A stretch of 13,172 nucleotides of DNA. It comes from Deltaproteobacteria bacterium (GTDB lineage: Bacteria > Bdellovibrionota_F > JAHFAK01). Position numbers and translations under genes: made by a program. The notes beneath the pieces are model-generated. The model was given only the letters and a program-made list of their open reading frames with translations. It did no database searches and was not told the DNA's origin. The stretch is taken from positions 1,780-14,951 of the forward strand of contig JAHFAK010000054.1 in the NCBI GenBank assembly GCA_023250585.1. The letters are read 5' to 3'. Positions 1,773 to 11,207 of this stretch are shown piece by piece (positions within the stretch are counted from its first letter, which is position 1; every line of letters begins with the position of its first letter).

Positions 1773-2594
1773 TTATCTCTTCAATCTATCGTTATTAAGT
1801 CCGTCCCAAAAGGTTTGTACGCCAATAAGCATTTCTTTTCCGGTTTTTATAAATTTTTCTTCACTAAATTCAGGGTAAAAATAAACTTCTTTGAGTTCAT
1901 CATGAGTATGGCCGGCATGCTGATCTTCAACTTTATCATGCCATTTAAAAAAGCTAAGCGGAAGATTCGGAAGTTTATTTTTTTTAAATCGTTCTAAGCC
2001 TTGAATTAATTCTTTCCAAAATCCAGCGGCTGCCCAATTTTCGACGGCATAGCTAGCACCAGAACCAACACTGAAATCTTCACTTCCATAAAGACGATCG
2101 AGTTCATCCATAAAATGCAGGGTTGTTTTTGTCCCATGCTTTCGTTTTCCTAAATCATTAAATCCCAAATCGAGCGGCCTGCCAAAATCAAGCATCCATT
2201 CAAAATGTGCGGCTTTAAACAGAAAACGTCCTCCATCGACGGTTCCTTCGGTGCTTACTAAAATACTTTCTTCATCATTTTCTGTGTTTTTTTGTATTTC
2301 TTTTTTCTTATTTTTATTATTGAAAACCGTTCCCAATTCACTTGCTAATATTTCTTTTGATTTTCTCATTTCTTCAAGGCTTGAAGCATTGATTACTTTT
2401 TTGAGTTGAGCAACCATAAACCAATTCGAAAATACGGAAAACTGAACTGCAAAATGACGAACTTCTTGGAGTGATAAATCCGCTTCTTTGAACCATCTGG
2501 TATATTTATTATTCGTAATAATTTCGTGGGTCATGAGTTCAGATTGGATTTGTTCTTTGAAACCATTATAATCATTTTGTGATCGTGTAACCAT
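1773..2594 (-). CDS. Heme-oxygenase-fold diiron-type protein (CADD/HDO/PqqC-TenA superfamily)
   Basis: A 273-residue helical protein without signal peptide, so cytoplasmic. It carries a set of residues arranged like the six iron ligands of heme-oxygenase-like diiron oxidases such as CADD and UndA: E86 in SELG, H130 in KAAHFEW, E185 in AVENW, then H219-xxx-E223-xx-H226 in WHDKVEDQH. A Lys/Asn/Glu-rich insertion (about 93-112) separates E86 from H130, which are only a few residues apart in CADD. E223 replaces the more usual Asp. Family members perform O2-dependent chemistry, for example p-aminobenzoate formation by CADD and fatty-acid decarboxylation by UndA; the substrate here is unknown. The start is fixed by AAAGGAG six bases before ATG. 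A sigma70-like promoter lies 30-58 bases upstream. It is probably the first gene of an operon with the nucleotidase. Confidence is good for the fold, moderate for the diiron site. Confidence 0.72.
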   Translation of the reverse strand: MVTRSQNDYNGFKEQIQSELMTHEIITNNKYTRWFKEADLSLQEVRHFAVQFSVFSNWFMVAQLKKVINASSLEEMRKSKEILASELGTVFNNKNKKKEIQKNTENDEESILVSTEGTVDGGRFLFKAAHFEWMLDFGRPLDLGFNDLGKRKHGTKTTLHFMDELDRLYGSEDFSVGSGASYAVENWAAAGFWKELIQGLERFKKNKLPNLPLSFFKWHDKVEDQHAGHTHDELKEVYFYPEFSEEKFIKTGKEMLIGVQTFWDGLNNDRLKR

Positions 2595-5060: not shown

Positions 5061-5648
5061 CTATCCGCCTTCGCAGAGTACCACGGCATATGCCGTGGGT
5101 GAATGCGCGGGAGCTTTTGCGGATGTCGCCCCAGGACTTACAGGCGGATACCCTCCGTAGCCTTTGGCGAAGGAGGGTAATAAATGGTACCACGGCTTTA
5201 GCCGTGCGGCTCTATGGATAAGTCGGATATACGTGATATCTGCTGCCCATACCTGATTGGGTCGTACAATTGTTAACCCCCGAAGAAGATACGGAAAAAT
5301 GGTGTGCTCCTGTCTCCGCTTGCTCGTATTCGGACCCGGACATATTCCCGCTATTCCTATGGTTCGCATCAATCTCTGTACTCGTTTTCGATTGACCGAG
5401 TATCCATATCCCTTCAAAAATATGACCATTTTCCGACTCCCGTAAAAGGGTGTCTTCGTATACTGGGCGTCCAGTAAATTTATTAACAATACATCTTCCG
5501 CTTCGATCCCTACCGCTCGATAATAAAACCGTGATCGGCACAGTCCCAAAAGCTCGCACTGCCGAGAAATGCTTATCTCCTTGTCCTTTGAAACTAATCC
5601 CATCTTTCCTCCGTACTTAAAATCCAAGCTTTTTTTTAAGCCAATCAT
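5061..5648 (-). pseudogene. IS3-family transposase OrfB, truncated after the first catalytic Asp
   Basis: The N-terminal part is a normal IS3 OrfB: a helix-turn-helix-like segment (ISISRQCELLGLCRSRFYYR), then YGSRKMVIFLKGYGYSVNRK and KRVQRLMR. The start of the rve/DDE integrase core follows, PNQVWAADITYIRL, with the first catalytic Asp. At about 5219 homology stops abruptly and the frame reads through the GC-rich hairpin cluster to a chance stop at 5061. The second Asp and the Glu of the DDE triad are missing, so it cannot be active. OrfB normally has roughly 270-290 residues; only about 140 of this ORF are genuine. The reading frame overlaps orfA as in IS3 elements. Confidence 0.85.
5062..5215. 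repeat. Cluster of GC-rich hairpins (REP-like) fused to the broken IS3 end
   Basis: Four inverted repeats occur in about 150 bases: TATCCGCC (5062-5069) with GGCGGATA (5143-5150); the perfect 18-base palindrome CCACGGCATATGCCGTGG (about 5081-5098); CCCTCC (5151-5156) with GGAGGG (5172-5177) around GCC-TTT-GGC; and CACGGC-TTTA-GCCGTG (about 5190-5205). The second and fourth share the frame TACCACGGC...GCCGTG, so they look like two copies of one unit. The GC content is clearly higher than in the neighbours. No gene is visible. Confidence 0.6.
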
Positions 5649-5970
5649 TTTCCACCTCCACCTGTCCTATCTTCTCATACAGTTTCTCGATTAATTGTTT
5701 TTGTTCTTTTTCGTATCCTCTCGCATTACTCCCTTTCTCGAAAAGATGCGATACACTTTCCTTGACCTGCTTTTTCCATACTCCTATCTGAATCGGATGT
5801 ACTCCGTATTCTGACGCTAACTCCGTTAGACTTCGGTCTTCTTTTAATGCTGCTAATACTACCTTTGCCTTAAATTCATTACCGTGATTCTTCTTCATCC
5901 CCATAACTAAACCTCCATTCTGACACCCTAGTTCAGGGGTCTCTTCTTGTCTAGTTTTCGGGGTCCACTA
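5216..5970 (-). mobile_element. IS3-family insertion sequence, 3'-truncated
   Basis: The upstream end is preserved: TGGACCCCGAAAACTAGACA on the minus strand (5948-5967) is a typical IS3-type terminal inverted repeat just before orfA. The other end and the distal half of orfB are absent, replaced by the hairpin cluster. The preserved end directly abuts an interrupted IS630 transposase, suggesting insertion into that older element followed by a deletion. Confidence 0.8.
5617..5904 (-). CDS. IS3-family transposase OrfA (helix-turn-helix)
   Basis: A 95-residue protein with the typical IS3 OrfA start (NEFKAKVVLAALKEDRSLTELASEYGVHP, a helix-turn-helix that binds the element ends) and a C-terminal leucine-zipper-like heptad segment ending ENDWLKKKLGF. 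GGAGG lies seven bases before ATG. The end overlaps orfB at a run of eight A (minus strand), the usual site for programmed frameshifting in this family. It appears intact, but the element as a whole is broken because orfB is truncated. Confidence 0.9.
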   Translation of the reverse strand: MGMKKNHGNEFKAKVVLAALKEDRSLTELASEYGVHPIQIGVWKKQVKESVSHLFEKGSNARGYEKEQKQLIEKLYEKIGQVEVENDWLKKKLGF

Positions 5971-5971
5971 T

Positions 5972-6472
5972 AGTCAACCGGAACGAATCGACTATGAGTA
6001 CGAACGCAATGGAGTTGGTCACTTGTTTATGTTTTTAGAACCCATGAGTGGATTTCGCCACGTTGATGTTTTGACCTCTCATGATCGAAAAGATTGGGTA
6101 TATGTGATGAAATCACTCATGGAAAAGTACTACAAAGAAGCTCAAAGAGTTACGTTTGTGTTAGATAATTTATCAACACACAACCCTAAATTTTTTTATG
6201 AATTTTTGAATCCGGAAGAAGCGAGATCTTTGTTAAACCGTATAGAGTTTAAATATACCCCCAAGCATGCGAGTTGGTTGAATATGGCTGAAATCGGATT
6301 TAGTGTATTAAGTAGAGAGTGCTTAGATAGGAGAATTCCTGATCGGGAGAGCTTAACTCACGAGATTACTCTGTGGGAGAAAGAGAAAAATAAAAAGCAC
6401 CATAAGGTTACTTGGAGATTTACAACAAAGGATGCAAGAATTAACCTTAAAAAATTCTACCCATCAATTTAA
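5972..6472 (+). pseudogene. IS630-family transposase, 5'-truncated (C-terminal DDE_3 half)
   Basis: Reading back from the stop at 6470-6472, the frame is open to the IS3 junction. It begins in QPERIDYEYERNGVGHLFMF, a well-known internal segment of IS630 transposases. The remaining part carries the second acidic residue (VLDNLSTHN) and the third (ASWLNMAEIGF, Glu), with the C-terminal KKHHKVTWRFTTKDARIN. The N-terminal helix-turn-helix and the first catalytic Asp (usually in an LDE motif) are missing. A TTG at 6023 could serve as start but has no convincing ribosome binding site. The stop overlaps the end of the convergent metalloenzyme gene by 9 bases. Confidence 0.85.
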
Positions 6473-7540
6473 ACGTGGTGCTGTACTAGGTTCAATATTA
6501 TTATAAAAAAGCTGATCATTGACCATGATTTGTACTTGTGGGCAAATGAAATCAAAATGCATTTTTGTTGTAGTATTATTCGCATTAGTAGGATCGGCAC
6601 CTATACCGAGATGCATCCCTAATGATGCTTCATTTGAGGTAGCGCCCCAATTATATATGAGAGGAAAAGACGTTGTGCTTAATCCAATCCCCACTTCTAC
6701 TATTGAAGTAAAGGCGTAATGACTAAATAGTATATCATTAAAAACCTTTTCAACATATGAATTTTCTGATTCAATAGAAATAATAGTTCCAGCTTGTATT
6801 GTTAATAATACAGAATCATCTTTCAACATTTTCCCCGCATATAATATATTTTCATACAAATCTTTTTCATCACGATTTATAGAACGAAATGGAAGAATAC
6901 TCAAAGCTCCGCGGTTGCAGAGTAATGAGCCATTAATCTGATTCCCTCCATAATATAACTCTGCAGCTGGAGCAAATCGAATATCTCCTATCTCCAAAGG
7001 CCCTGATATTTCCATAATTGGACTGATATCTTCAACGGTTAATTTATAGAACACTTCTTGTTTCCCCGTAATAAATTTTAATGAATAGGGATTTTTCTTC
7101 ATTTCAAGTTTTTCAAAAAATGAATCTGCAATTTTAAGGTGCTCAAAAGGAGAGTCTTTAAGCCATCGTTCTAAAGTTTCTGTTACCTGTACTTGTGTCA
7201 GATTATAACGAGGTAGTTCTAAAGTAGTAAGTGCAGCTGACGTATGATTTTTTTCTATATACCGAAAATTTGACTTGTCTTTTGGAAAGATTGTTTCCAC
7301 CGTAAATTCAAAAATACACATAATACTATTTTTACGGTGATTTTTTTTCACCGTTTCATAGGCGTTATTACAGATACGAGCATTAATAACCATAGCATTC
7401 ATTTCCCGAAATGCATCAATAATATCAGTACTAAAATAACCTGGATCATAAAAGAGAATAATTTGAATATTATGGGAATGTTTTATTTTACTTAAGTATT
7501 CATCAAAATAGTCTAATGCTCGTTTTTTCATAAGGGGCAT
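6464..7540 (-). CDS. M29 aminopeptidase T / NicX-like metalloenzyme, second copy (C-terminus altered by IS630)
   Basis: 358 residues, paralogous to the product of 8201-9193. The C-terminal half has the family's block order: AAELYYGGNQINGS (E194), EVGIG (E282), SNEASLGMHLGIG (E304, H310) and KMHFDF (H328, D330). These match the metal-binding Glu/His/His-x-Asp set of M29 aminopeptidases and of the related ring-cleaving Fe(II) dioxygenase NicX. The canonical PGGEV loop has become APAAEL, so this copy may have another specificity. No signal peptide. It starts 14 bases after the oxygenase gene; an in-frame ATG three codons later is an alternative start. Compared with the paralogue, about 10 residues (IEPSTAPRLN) are extra at the end, where the sequence coincides with the IS630 terminus. 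Peptidase and oxygenase chemistry cannot be told apart from sequence. Confidence 0.68.
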   Translation of the reverse strand: MPLMKKRALDYFDEYLSKIKHSHNIQIILFYDPGYFSTDIIDAFREMNAMVINARICNNAYETVKKNHRKNSIMCIFEFTVETIFPKDKSNFRYIEKNHTSAALTTLELPRYNLTQVQVTETLERWLKDSPFEHLKIADSFFEKLEMKKNPYSLKFITGKQEVFYKLTVEDISPIMEISGPLEIGDIRFAPAAELYYGGNQINGSLLCNRGALSILPFRSINRDEKDLYENILYAGKMLKDDSVLLTIQAGTIISIESENSYVEKVFNDILFSHYAFTSIVEVGIGLSTTSFPLIYNWGATSNEASLGMHLGIGADPTNANNTTTKMHFDFICPQVQIMVNDQLFYNNIEPSTAPRLN

Positions 7541-7554
7541 TCTTTAAAATAATA

Positions 7555-8196
7555 TTATACGTAATGAAAAGTCATAGTATATCTACTAACATTTGCTTTT
7601 TCGGTAACCCGAACAACTTTATGTAATGATTTTTCATGAGGGATAAATAAAACAGCTTCATTAAAACGAGGGAAAATCCTTTTTTTAAACCTTCCCCAAT
7701 GATATATGGTAGCCCCACCAAATGATTTTTGCCAATTCTTTGTTAAAGACAAACTAATCACGAGTTTTGTGTGGTTATTTGATGGTCCAAAATCAGTATG
7801 ATCTTCAAGAAAATTACCCGATACCATCTTAATAAATATACCACTGTTGAGTGGGCGCATTTTTGTTAGTGGTAATCCTGTTATATTTGATAACAATAGT
7901 ACTGTTTCGTTCATTTGCATGTACTTACAAAGCAGATCTATTGATTTAATCTTATTCTTTGTTCTTTTATGAATACTAATAAATATTTTTTCCCTATCAG
8001 GTTTACCAAATTTAGTTAGGATAGTATCTCCTTCAAAAAATACACAGAAATCAGAAAACTTTGTTATTGATGCTTCCTTATAAATAGCTTCTGCAATATC
8101 ATGGTCAAGAAAGTTTTTTACTTGAGCAAAGTCTGGTAAAGAAAACACACGCCTTTTATGAAGATTTATACTATTTGGAGAAGAAAAATGTAGCAT
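7555..8196 (-). CDS. 2-oxoglutarate/Fe(II)-dependent oxygenase
   Basis: A 213-residue protein ending in a double-stranded beta-helix domain. The iron triad is H133-x-D135 (FLEDHTDFG) and H192 (SLHKVVRV), with R205 (SRYTMTFHY) in the position that binds the 2-oxoglutarate carboxylate; this resembles the prolyl-4-hydroxylase-like superfamily. Members hydroxylate or otherwise oxidise proteins, peptides or small molecules. The N-terminal 110 residues are not recognised. It lies between the two M29-like genes, with gaps of 4 bases upstream and 14 downstream. There is no clear Shine-Dalgarno, so translation is probably coupled to the preceding gene. Together with the upstream small peptide and exporter it is a candidate tailoring enzyme; the substrate is unknown. 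Confidence 0.78.
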   Translation of the reverse strand: MLHFSSPNSINLHKRRVFSLPDFAQVKNFLDHDIAEAIYKEASITKFSDFCVFFEGDTILTKFGKPDREKIFISIHKRTKNKIKSIDLLCKYMQMNETVLLLSNITGLPLTKMRPLNSGIFIKMVSGNFLEDHTDFGPSNNHTKLVISLSLTKNWQKSFGGATIYHWGRFKKRIFPRFNEAVLFIPHEKSLHKVVRVTEKANVSRYTMTFHYV

Positions 8197-8200
8197 AGGT

Positions 8201-9193
8201 TTAACTAAATATATTATTATTTATTTTTACAGACGTATTAGTACTCATAAAATCAACATGAATAAGTTCTTTATGAACATTTTTTTCATCAGGATCAGGA
8301 TCGCCTCCAATAGCAACATGAACCCCAGGATGCCCTTCGTTACTTGAAGCGGGCCAATTATGAATAAACTGTTTAACTGCAAAGTTAAATGAAAAACCAA
8401 CTTCAGTTATTCTATAATACAGCCTACTGTTAAGTATTGTAGTAATCTGCCGATGGAGACCACCTACACTAGTCCAATGATGTATAATTCCATTCTTGAT
8501 CATCAGTGTAATAGGGTCATTAGGTATATGTTTACTTAATGTTGTTATTCTTTGAGCAAGATCATGCCCTCTTGGATGTAAGGGAGTTGCAAGAAGAGCA
8601 CCATTAATAGTAAATGTGCCATTAATAGAACTTCCTGTGTAGGCTACTTCACCTCCCGGTAAAATACGGTGTTCTCCTTTACCCAGTGGGCCGTATAATT
8701 CAAATAATGGTATACGGTCATTTATTGTAAGTTCCCCCGTTGTTTTTATCGTAATGCTATATGGAACCGATTCTTGAAGATAACGAAATAATCTTTTAGC
8801 TGTAATAGATTGTCTCTGATAGTCTGAACGATCTATTACATGGTGAATGTAAAAAATTTGTTCAAGAGAAGGGGAAAAATCAATTATAGGTAATTCAACA
8901 CGAGCAAAAGAATAATTATTGTTTGTTTCTAAAAGACTATGACCCTTGATAATTGAGGCATGTTTAAGAAAATAACACACAAATACAGCTGTTTTTTTTT
9001 GTTTTTTTAAGCAACAGAGAAGCTCCAAAACCTTTGAATAATCAAAGTCAATATTAAAAACTACAGTAGAATAGCGTGATGCGGAGCTTAATAAGGTATT
9101 TGTATGTTTTTCAGTAAGTTTAAAGTCGGTAAGAAAAACAAGCACTGCCTTATGAGGGCTAAATTGAGCTAATAGTGAATTGTAACCGGTCAT
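8201..9193 (-). CDS. M29 aminopeptidase T / NicX-like metalloenzyme, first copy
   Basis: 330 residues, no signal peptide. The C-terminal half carries the family's hallmark blocks: HRILPGGEVAYTG (E182), SSINGTFTINGA, ITEVGFSFN (E264), SNEGHPGVHVAIGGDP (E286, H292) and KELIHVDFM (H312, D314). In M29 aminopeptidases these residues bind two metals; in the related NicX dioxygenase a His/His-x-Asp set binds one Fe(II). The N-terminal 140 residues form an alternating hydrophobic/helical domain that is less conserved. It overlaps the MATE stop by four bases (ATGA), with AGGAG eight bases before ATG, so the two are translationally coupled. It is the better-conserved of two paralogues around the 2OG oxygenase. 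Trimming of a peptide or oxidation of a residue are both possible. Confidence 0.7.
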   Translation of the reverse strand: MTGYNSLLAQFSPHKAVLVFLTDFKLTEKHTNTLLSSASRYSTVVFNIDFDYSKVLELLCCLKKQKKTAVFVCYFLKHASIIKGHSLLETNNNYSFARVELPIIDFSPSLEQIFYIHHVIDRSDYQRQSITAKRLFRYLQESVPYSITIKTTGELTINDRIPLFELYGPLGKGEHRILPGGEVAYTGSSINGTFTINGALLATPLHPRGHDLAQRITTLSKHIPNDPITLMIKNGIIHHWTSVGGLHRQITTILNSRLYYRITEVGFSFNFAVKQFIHNWPASSNEGHPGVHVAIGGDPDPDEKNVHKELIHVDFMSTNTSVKINNNIFS

Positions 9194-10536
9194 GAATTAA
9201 TCTCCTGAATATGAGACTGCAATACTCTTTTTGCTTGAGCATACATAACCACTACAAGAATAATTTGTAGGGATAAGTAACAACTCCACATAGAAATGGC
9301 TCCAAATTGTAGAAGTATCCCAAAACAATAACTGCCTATTAATAGAACACAAAATTGTAAAATTATCTCAGAAATTGAGACAAAAACTTCTGCTCCATTT
9401 AACTTTGCAATCGTTTCATAATTGAAAGCAGCTAACTCTAATATGCTGAATAATGCAAAAAGTATAAACCAGGAGACCATATTGAAATCTTTCGATGGAC
9501 TTAATGAAAATGCTGCTAAAATTGACTGTACAAAGAAACAAAGTATAAGGTTACAAACGATAGATCCTCCAATACATAAAAGTGAACCTTTCTGAAAATG
9601 CTCTTTTGCTGTTCCTAATTCTTGCGCATTAAGAGCATTGGTAAACGATATTGCATTTGATCGTACAAAACCAAAGAGGATGATTCTATTCATGGTGATA
9701 ACTTGAAGAGTAACGCTCGTAAAGGCTAGATAAACTATCCCCATTTGACCTACAAGATTTCTAAAAATGAGTAAGATCAGGATACTTATAAAAGCTTGTA
9801 TTCCTGGCCAAAAAGTCATTATTACTGCTTTTTCTAAATATTTTTTGAACAAAATGAGAGAAAATACCAGCGCATTGCCTTTCATAAGGTTCCATAAAAT
9901 ATAGCCAACAAGGCATATTTCTGATAGTATAGTTCCTAATGCTGCACCTTGTATCTTTAAGCTTGGAACATTGATATACGTTAATCCATTGATCAATATC
10001 CATGTGCTACATATTTTTATTCCCGTAGATATGATCGAAAGGGTAATGATTATTTTTGTCTGACCAATCGTTGCTAGGTAAGCAAAATAAACAAAAATTA
10101 CAGGCATCATAAGGATGGAATATTTTGCAATTTGTAAATATGAATCAAATCCTTGCCGAGCTTCATAACCAGATATACCGGTAAAGATGAGTGCGCTAAT
10201 ATAATGAGACAATCCGCTTATAGTCATAAAAGAAAATAACCCCAAAATGAAACCAATTAAGGTCATATGAAATAAATGAGTACTCAGTGAGGATACTGCA
10301 TCACCTCCGAGTGATTCTTTTGTTCGAGCAAGTTCTTTACTAAAAAAAGAATGGCTGGGGACATTAATACCTAAGAGAAATGAGATCACCATTGAAATAA
10401 CTAATCCTGATAGGCTTACTGCGCTAATAGCCTCAATTCCAAATGGTGAGATTAAATAGGTATCGATAAGATTAGAAAAATATTTGAGTATTCCGATAAT
10501 GGACAGGGAAATACCCATGGTAAGCATCTTTTTCAT
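9190..10536 (-). CDS. MATE-family efflux transporter
   Basis: 448 residues with about twelve hydrophobic membrane segments and the two-lobed MATE pattern. The N-terminal lobe has the typical SLSIIGILKYFSNLIDTYLI and PFGIEAISAVSLSGLV, and a similar arrangement recurs after about residue 235. MATE proteins export small cationic or amphipathic compounds using H+ or Na+ gradients from the inner membrane. It is the first of four tightly packed genes, preceded by a 35-codon ORF and a stem-loop; export of the cluster's product, or self-protection against it, is the natural role. The Shine-Dalgarno is weak (AAAGG about 14 bases upstream), so the start is less certain; ATG at codon 4 or 7 is possible. 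Confidence 0.88.
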   Translation of the reverse strand: MKKMLTMGISLSIIGILKYFSNLIDTYLISPFGIEAISAVSLSGLVISMVISFLLGINVPSHSFFSKELARTKESLGGDAVSSLSTHLFHMTLIGFILGLFSFMTISGLSHYISALIFTGISGYEARQGFDSYLQIAKYSILMMPVIFVYFAYLATIGQTKIIITLSIISTGIKICSTWILINGLTYINVPSLKIQGAALGTILSEICLVGYILWNLMKGNALVFSLILFKKYLEKAVIMTFWPGIQAFISILILLIFRNLVGQMGIVYLAFTSVTLQVITMNRIILFGFVRSNAISFTNALNAQELGTAKEHFQKGSLLCIGGSIVCNLILCFFVQSILAAFSLSPSKDFNMVSWFILFALFSILELAAFNYETIAKLNGAEVFVSISEIILQFCVLLIGSYCFGILLQFGAISMWSCYLSLQIILVVVMYAQAKRVLQSHIQEINS

Positions 10537-10599
10537 GTTAATTTTTAAGCACCTTTAACCATTGAATGGTAACTATTGGGTAGGTATAAAAAGTTACAC

Positions 10600-10630
10600 T
10601 AGGAGGAAGTTTATATGTTACTTCCCCCTA
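10600..10630 (-). terminator. Stem-loop between the small peptide gene and the MATE operon (attenuator or weak terminator)
   Basis: TAGGGGGAAGT (10620-10630, minus strand) pairs over 11 positions with ACTTCCTCCTA (10600-10610), with one G-U pair and a 9-base loop. A run of five T follows only after seven further bases, so termination would be partial at best. Such a structure would let the first small gene be expressed more strongly than the downstream enzyme genes, or would protect its mRNA end. Confidence 0.5.
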
Positions 10631-10666
10631 ATAGAAAAAATACAATCCCAACAATGTAACAAAAAA

Positions 10667-10774
10667 TTATTGCCAAATATCGTATCGAGCTGCCCCCATA
10701 GAACGAACACGTAAAGTATTCTTTTGTACTTTTTTGGTTGATTTTTTTCTGTTCTTTCCTTTTGTTTGTTTCAT
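10667..10774 (-). CDS. 35-residue basic peptide, possible precursor peptide of the downstream cluster
   Basis: A small ORF with AAAGGAG five bases before ATG, one of the best ribosome binding sites in the window, and a clean TAA. The first 24 residues are extremely basic (11 Lys/Arg, starting MKQTKGKNRKK), then the character changes to the tail SMGAARYDIWQ. It is on the same strand as, and 130 bases before, the MATE gene, from which it is separated by a stem-loop. That is the usual layout of a precursor peptide followed by modification and export genes. I do not recognise the sequence. Alternatives are a small ribosome- or nucleic-acid-associated protein, or a regulatory leader peptide. Expression is likely; the precursor role is inference from context only. 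Confidence 0.6.
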   Translation of the reverse strand: MKQTKGKNRKKSTKKVQKNTLRVRSMGAARYDIWQ

Positions 10775-10786: not shown

Positions 10787-10837
10787 CATGTATTAAAGTT
10801 AAAAAAGTTACACCTCAGCTTATATCTTTCAAAGATC

Positions 10838-11140
10838 TATCAGCGTTACGTTACCGCAGCAATACGTTTCAAATTCAGAGCCATCACTGTCCAAATTCTT
10901 TGCTCCCCATCATGCATCTGGATCACTCGGTGGCTGTGGTTTCTCTTTCCGCCATGCCTTCGGATTCTTCTCTTCATAGCTTATATGCGCCTTCTCATTC
11001 GATACCGCTTGCCGTGAAGGACTTACATCTGCTTTTATATGCGTACTATGTACCTATGCTCCAAAAACTAGGGACTTTCCATTCCTTTCTCACCCTTATT
11101 TCCAAAGACCTTCACAATTTCGCAACAGCCTCTTTAACGA
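10838..11140 (-). pseudogene. Decayed DDE transposase remnant (IS1182/IS5-like)
   Basis: On the minus strand, from 11053 the frame reads VHSTHIKADV, then SYEEKNPKAWRKEK, then PPSDPDA, followed by an in-frame TGA (10910-10912) and WGAKNLDSDGSEFE. The THIKA and DPDA-(stop)-WG motifs are those of IS1182/IS5-type DDE transposases, where an Arg codon normally stands at the place of the TGA. Another stop (TAG) lies just before the Val. Both ends are missing, so this is a fossil. The stretch is more GC-rich than its neighbours. Plus-strand reading frames here are shadows. Confidence 0.5.
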
Positions 11141-11207
11141 AGTAATGCAAATGGCATGCCATTAATTATTCTATATGATTACTGATAGTTATGTGTTTTC
11201 AAGAAAA

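Follow-up and report, generated by a model that had tools for sequence, protein, structure and literature searches.

The window, by which we mean the whole 13,172-nt stretch of DNA analysed here, contains a five-gene operon that, judging from its sequence, is likely to be a divergent RiPP operon of the crocagin type, whose product would differ from crocagin. It probably makes and exports a tiny modified peptide. The first-pass annotation had proposed an exported modified peptide, or a compound cut from the peptide's tail, made by a gene set that matched no described system. The C-terminal tail as the source of the product is still the best reading, whereas the claim of an unprecedented gene set is largely wrong and the accompanying reference to NicX does not hold: crocagin biosynthesis employs a matching set, and a MATE gene is found in cyanobacterial relatives. 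What we see is a divergent form of an already described type of machinery rather than a gene set without precedent. The product should be new, because the end of the peptide differs from that of crocagin and both metal-binding helper proteins apparently remain active.

On the minus strand the genes run in the order 35-codon ORF, MATE exporter, M29-like protein a, 2OG-Fe(II) oxygenase and M29-like protein b (Table 1). The coordinates agree with the earlier description of the last four as closely packed genes on one strand, with a 4-nt overlap between the genes for the exporter and protein a, a gap of 4 nt between protein a and the oxygenase, and a gap of 14 nt between the oxygenase and protein b. 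The small ORF encodes the Lys/Arg-rich sequence MKQTKGKNRKKSTKKVQKNTLRVRSMGAARYDIWQ, and its start codon is preceded at a distance of 5 nt by the Shine-Dalgarno sequence AAAGGAG, which bears out the excellent ribosome-binding site noted previously. It is alone in having such a site among the window ORFs of 20–60 codons. Across 200 first-order Markov sequences, a site of this kind preceded on average 0.35 ORFs of 30–60 codons per window, and none of these ORFs contained 30% or more Lys+Arg. A longer form of the ORF, beginning at an ATG at position 10789, would adjoin the Shine-Dalgarno sequence, and a start there is unlikely. The genome was searched for a second copy of the candidate precursor and only the one copy was found. 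We infer a border between a leader, MKQTKGKNRKKSTKKVQKNTLRVRSMG, and a core, AARYDIWQ.

Table 1 Features of the operon, its surroundings and the related cyanobacterial clusters. Positions are those of the window unless a locus is named.
Feature	Position	Strand	Basis or content
Candidate precursor peptide, 35 aa	10667..10774	(-)	ATG at 10774, stop end at 10667
14-bp hairpin, then AACTTTTT, between precursor and MATE gene	10597..10640	(-)	Fold
MATE-family exporter, 448 aa	9190..10536	(-)	PF01554 (MatE) E 1.6e-8
M29-like / CgnB-CgnE-like protein a, 330 aa	8201..9193	(-)	tblastn bridge to CgnB, hhalign
2OG-Fe(II) oxygenase, 213 aa	7555..8196	(-)	PF13640 E 7.3e-9, PF13661 E 7.6e-7
M29-like / CgnB-CgnE-like protein b, 358 aa	6464..7540	(-)	Identity to protein a, ligand positions
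IS630-type DDE_3 transposase fragment, convergent	6023..6472	(+)	PF13358 E 7.9e-18
IS3-type transposase pieces	5061-5904		Downstream of operon
Possible transposase remnant	10846-11145		Upstream of operon
Cyanobacterial crocagin-like clusters	L018:3153-10746, L019:2765-10616, L020:2827-10611		Precursor, CgnB/CgnE pair, 2OG, MATE

The space between the precursor and the MATE gene holds a stable hairpin. The minus-strand fold of positions 10560-10680 has a predicted energy of -31.9 kcal/mol (z -3.7), and 0 of 200 shuffled sequences were equally stable; a scan for simple consensus terminators did not report this hairpin. Attenuators between precursor and enzyme genes are common in RiPP operons, and the hairpin, which counts in favour of the crocagin-type reading, is possibly a terminator or attenuator that yields more precursor than enzyme. 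Separately, we observed GTGTAACTTTTT at positions 10585-10605, past the hairpin and downstream of the peptide gene, and at positions 10800-10815, in the region upstream of the peptide gene.

The MATE protein scored 62 bits against TIGR00797, which is under the cut-off of that model, and is weakly similar (E 2.5e-5) to WgkD, the MATE protein associated with tryglysin. By its Pfam matches the oxygenase is of the 2OG-FeII_Oxy_3/4 type. Its facial triad HxD...H is present as H133, D135 and H192, and it also matches the NCBIfam model for YhhC at E 1.2e-5, again under the cut-off.

Proteins a and b are paralogues with approximately 30% identity over 200 aa. Only the oxygenase gene lies between them, an arrangement that corresponds to the crocagin-type pairing of CgnB/CgnE-family genes within approximately 2.1 kb. 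Each retains six of six candidate metal ligands (E182, E264, E286, H292, H312 and D314 in protein a; E194, E282, E304, H310, H328 and D330 in protein b), and together with the oxygenase triad this supports the earlier observation that metal or iron ligands are kept in all three enzymes. Remote homology, the six-ligand pattern and a PxGE-type motif liken the two proteins to Peptidase M29 (AmpS, AmpT, PepS), but they are shorter than M29 proteins in the N-terminal region and stand beside peptide and 2OG genes. A Pfam search of both proteins matched no model, and PF02073 (Peptidase_M29) found nothing in either of them or anywhere in the genome. NicX (2,5-dihydroxypyridine 5,6-dioxygenase), to which the first-pass annotation had likened the pair, shares an M29-like ancestry by sequence, but the likeness fails at the metal site. 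The iron ligands of NicX are His265, Ser302, His318 and Asp320; at the first two of these positions both proteins of the window carry Glu and His, which makes NicX-type chemistry unlikely. As a candidate function for the M29-like proteins, NicX-type oxygenase activity was set aside on these ligands, which follow the M29/CgnB pattern instead.

The link between protein a and CgnB runs through an intermediate sequence: by tblastn, protein a matches a CgnB-like protein from a Deinococcus plasmid (E 5e-4), which itself matches CgnB (PDB 6zsv) at E 8.9e-11. A two-sequence profile of the window pair gave few PDB matches, among them 6zsv, aligned at the metal motif with an E value of only 0.71. Using hhalign, the window pair reached a probability of 97 over 218 columns against a set of CgnB-like proteins from Deinococcus, Thermus and cyanobacteria, 94 over 106 columns against M29 proteins, and 96.7 against the myxobacterial M29-like protein of locus L027. 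A tree was built with M29-type proteins as the outgroup (one G139 match and two matches from the cyanobacterial-phylum search). In this tree the window pair falls together (95/93), and the split that separates the pair and the CgnB-like group from the M29-like group has support of 94/95 and is not starred. Constraining the tree to unite the window pair with L027 was marginally disfavoured (p-AU 0.055). The signature W-x(3-4)-S-(xx)-NE-x3-G-x-H is common to the window pair and the CgnB family, while the first-ligand motif of the pair is PxxE (PxGE-type), as in M29 proteins, where CgnB has FFE. These data support the placement of the pair in the CgnB/E-M29 superfamily, with a similarity to CgnB/E that is remote. 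As L027 is nearly as close and the first-ligand motif is PxxE, our reading is that the pair would represent a third, deep lineage beside CgnB/E, between CgnB/E and M29, with a duplication of its own. An AlphaFold2 model of protein a, made from the two-sequence alignment, had a pLDDT of 37, and a PDB search with it gave no meaningful match. The L027 gene (L027:6507-7727) is a lone M29-like gene encoding 406 aa, located beside an MFS gene in what is probably a myxobacterial genome; it has the NE-x3-G-x-H motif and is intermediate between M29 and CgnB-like proteins.

The crocagin (cgn) cluster of Chondromyces crocatus includes CgnA, CgnB, CgnC and CgnE, of which CgnA is the 21-aa basic precursor (PMC10070186). 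CgnB and CgnE are homologous, have no Pfam match and probably derive from M29 aminopeptidases, although neither showed aminopeptidase activity; they bind the precursor and cooperate with the 2OG-dependent oxygenase CgnC, and the three proteins are enough to form the tetracyclic core on CgnA (PMC10070186). CgnB has a dinuclear metal site (ligands E161, E252, E274, H280, H291 and D293), for which an elimination reaction is proposed, and the site of CgnE is broken; in cases of duplicated CgnB-type proteins, according to the authors, the second copy always has a mutated metal site (PMC10070186). Our literature searches yielded no other publication on CgnB/CgnE-type systems.

The window operon is like cgn in its short basic precursor, its homologous and Pfam-less M29-derived pair, its 2OG-Fe(II) oxygenase and its transport gene. 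The two differ in that crocagin has the C-terminal core Ile-Tyr-Trp whereas the window tail reads ...RYDIWQ, and in that the metal site of CgnE is broken whereas both window copies keep their ligands. The cgn cluster also has the protease CgnD, a methyltransferase and a carbamoyltransferase, whereas the ORF list and Pfam matches reveal no methyltransferase, glycosyltransferase, carbamoyltransferase or protease among the operon genes. Because its Tyr and Trp are two residues apart and Trp is followed by Gln, where crocagin has adjacent Tyr-Trp-COOH, the window tail is not expected to form the crocagin tetracycle, and a tetracyclic pyrroloindoline would be an unlikely product of this operon. A more distant comparison is offered by the tryglysin wgk operon, which makes a RiPP from a 21-aa precursor using a radical SAM enzyme (PMC8092268). 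It likewise combines a small-precursor operon with a transporter gene modelled by NCBIfam as MATE (WgkD), but it relies on the radical SAM enzyme and is without M29-like or 2OG proteins.

Closer counterparts were found by searching 386 genomes in the phylum of a phycobilisome-bearing (cyanobacterial) genome, which revealed three crocagin-like clusters in three species of a single genus. Their 27-aa precursor, M[NS]AKKTQKRKLEQVNKETRSNLGN[IV]YW with the tail GN[I/V]YW, is encoded just 5' of the CgnB-like gene, and the latter is followed by genes for a glycosyltransferase, a PhyH-type 2OG oxygenase, a methyltransferase and a MATE protein, with a second copy nearby. The ligands of the CgnB-like protein in L020 are E161, E253, E276, H282, H293 and D295, and the cyanobacterial second copy shows the metal-site changes E276->Q and H293->Y. 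Since all three clusters carry a MATE gene, such a gene does accompany crocagin-like clusters and the gene types in the window match. The clusters thus share with the window a basic precursor, a CgnB/CgnE-like pair, a 2OG oxygenase and a MATE protein, but they differ from it in the PhyH-type oxygenase, the degenerate second copy, and the presence of a glycosyltransferase and methyltransferases. Pairwise tests detected no similarity between the window oxygenase and the PhyH-type oxygenase, nor between the window MATE protein and that of the cyanobacterial clusters. At a related cyanobacterial locus (L021:308-7671) we see MATE and PhyH genes, a truncated glycosyltransferase gene and the ligand-poor copy alone, as in a decaying cluster.

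In the mechanism we propose, the basic stretch of the 35-aa peptide would serve as a leader recognised by both M29-derived proteins, at least one of which would bring the C-terminal residues to the 2OG-Fe(II) oxygenase. The oxygenase would hydroxylate beta-carbons in the tail, at the Tyr, Asp, Ile or Trp of ...RYDIWQ, and, in line with the proposal for CgnB, the M29-like dinuclear metal site or sites would then carry out an elimination or cyclisation at the hydroxylated residue. The ring so formed would involve Tyr and/or Trp. Leader removal would fall to an enzyme whose gene lies elsewhere, or perhaps to one M29-like copy in a peptidase role, and the MATE protein would export the product. It is conceivable, though we lean against it, that the operon defines a new RiPP class, with a separate lineage of M29-derived pair in which both copies are catalytically competent, an oxygenase of another type, and a Tyr-x-x-Trp crosslink within the tail leading to an unseen macrocycle or alkaloid.

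Some of the same features can be read in other ways. The operon could be a peptide operon unrelated to crocagin, wherein the oxygenase hydroxylates the peptide, the M29-like proteins are true aminopeptidases and degrade the basic leader from the N-terminal side, and the MATE protein exports the trimmed core. Such a role would suit the M29-protein PxGE-type motif in both copies, the retention of all candidate ligands by both, which is unlike the situation in crocagin clusters, and an operon that has no other protease. We nevertheless find it unlikely, given the short N-terminal regions and lack of an M29 Pfam match, the lean of the whole-pair profile and the tree towards CgnB-like proteins, and the finding that CgnB and CgnE showed no activity as aminopeptidases. 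Another option, to which we assign a distinctly low probability, is a small-molecule operon, in which the substrate of the oxygenase and M29-like proteins is a free metabolite, exported by the MATE protein, while the small ORF encodes a basic protein or leader peptide unrelated to the pathway. Small molecules are common cargo of MATE proteins, no relatives of the small ORF are known, and approximately 130 nt and a hairpin separate it from the MATE gene; against this, a short basic ORF with paired M29-like proteins and a 2OG oxygenase is the crocagin set, and a similar ORF adjoins the CgnB-like gene in three species.

We consider it very improbable that this is a decaying or truncated cluster that has lost its tailoring and protease genes to insertion sequences and has no mature product now. 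One cyanobacterial relative is visibly decayed, and IS fragments flank the operon, but all five reading frames are open, the catalytic residues are kept, and the C-terminal metal motif of protein b is complete. The preferred reading of a crocagin-type operon allows for some loss. Transposase pieces on both sides place the operon in an IS-rich island, and since the DDE_3 fragment runs 9 nt into the 3' end of gene b, operon genes may have been lost; an IS insertion may have removed a methyltransferase or a glycosyl- or carbamoyltransferase gene. The IS630-type element is present once in the genome, with no second copy by which its borders could be fixed. Elsewhere in the window, the protein encoded at positions 1773-2594 (minus strand) very weakly resembles iron-containing redox enzymes with a heme-oxygenase-like fold (PF14518, E 0.04).

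Crocagin machinery turns three amino acids into a rare alkaloid scaffold; its need for two M29-derived proteins, when the metal site of one is dead, is puzzling. An operon that keeps both metal sites and has another core motif is a natural comparison for separating catalysis from substrate presentation, as well as a candidate source of a new product. It would extend crocagin-type chemistry to a barely sampled phylum, represented by two genomes in the collection searched, the other of which lacks the system. No further operon of this type was found in 386 diverse genomes, in the 386 genomes of the cyanobacterial phylum, or in 195 genomes presumably of the myxobacterial phylum, each of these searches being incomplete. 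The genome_contigs collection, scanned with protein a and with an alignment (A2), gave 0 confirmed relatives, and a scan of viral_contigs found none; these contig scans, likewise incomplete, depend on short peptide patterns.

In the plasmid search, the only relative of protein a was a remote one from Deinococcus, and protein b had none. On a plasmid of Deinococcus sp. QL22 (L003:7392-8720), a single CgnB-like gene is followed by a methyltransferase gene and preceded by a 98-aa ORF with three EVKF[T/S]YAPE repeats and the tail CPCGTF, a candidate multi-core RiPP precursor. A plasmid of Thermus thermophilus AA2-2 (L007:6686-7972) also has a single CgnB-like gene, with an ABC transporter downstream, and an 85-aa ORF upstream of it ends in CPCGVGI, comparable to the CPCGTF of Deinococcus.
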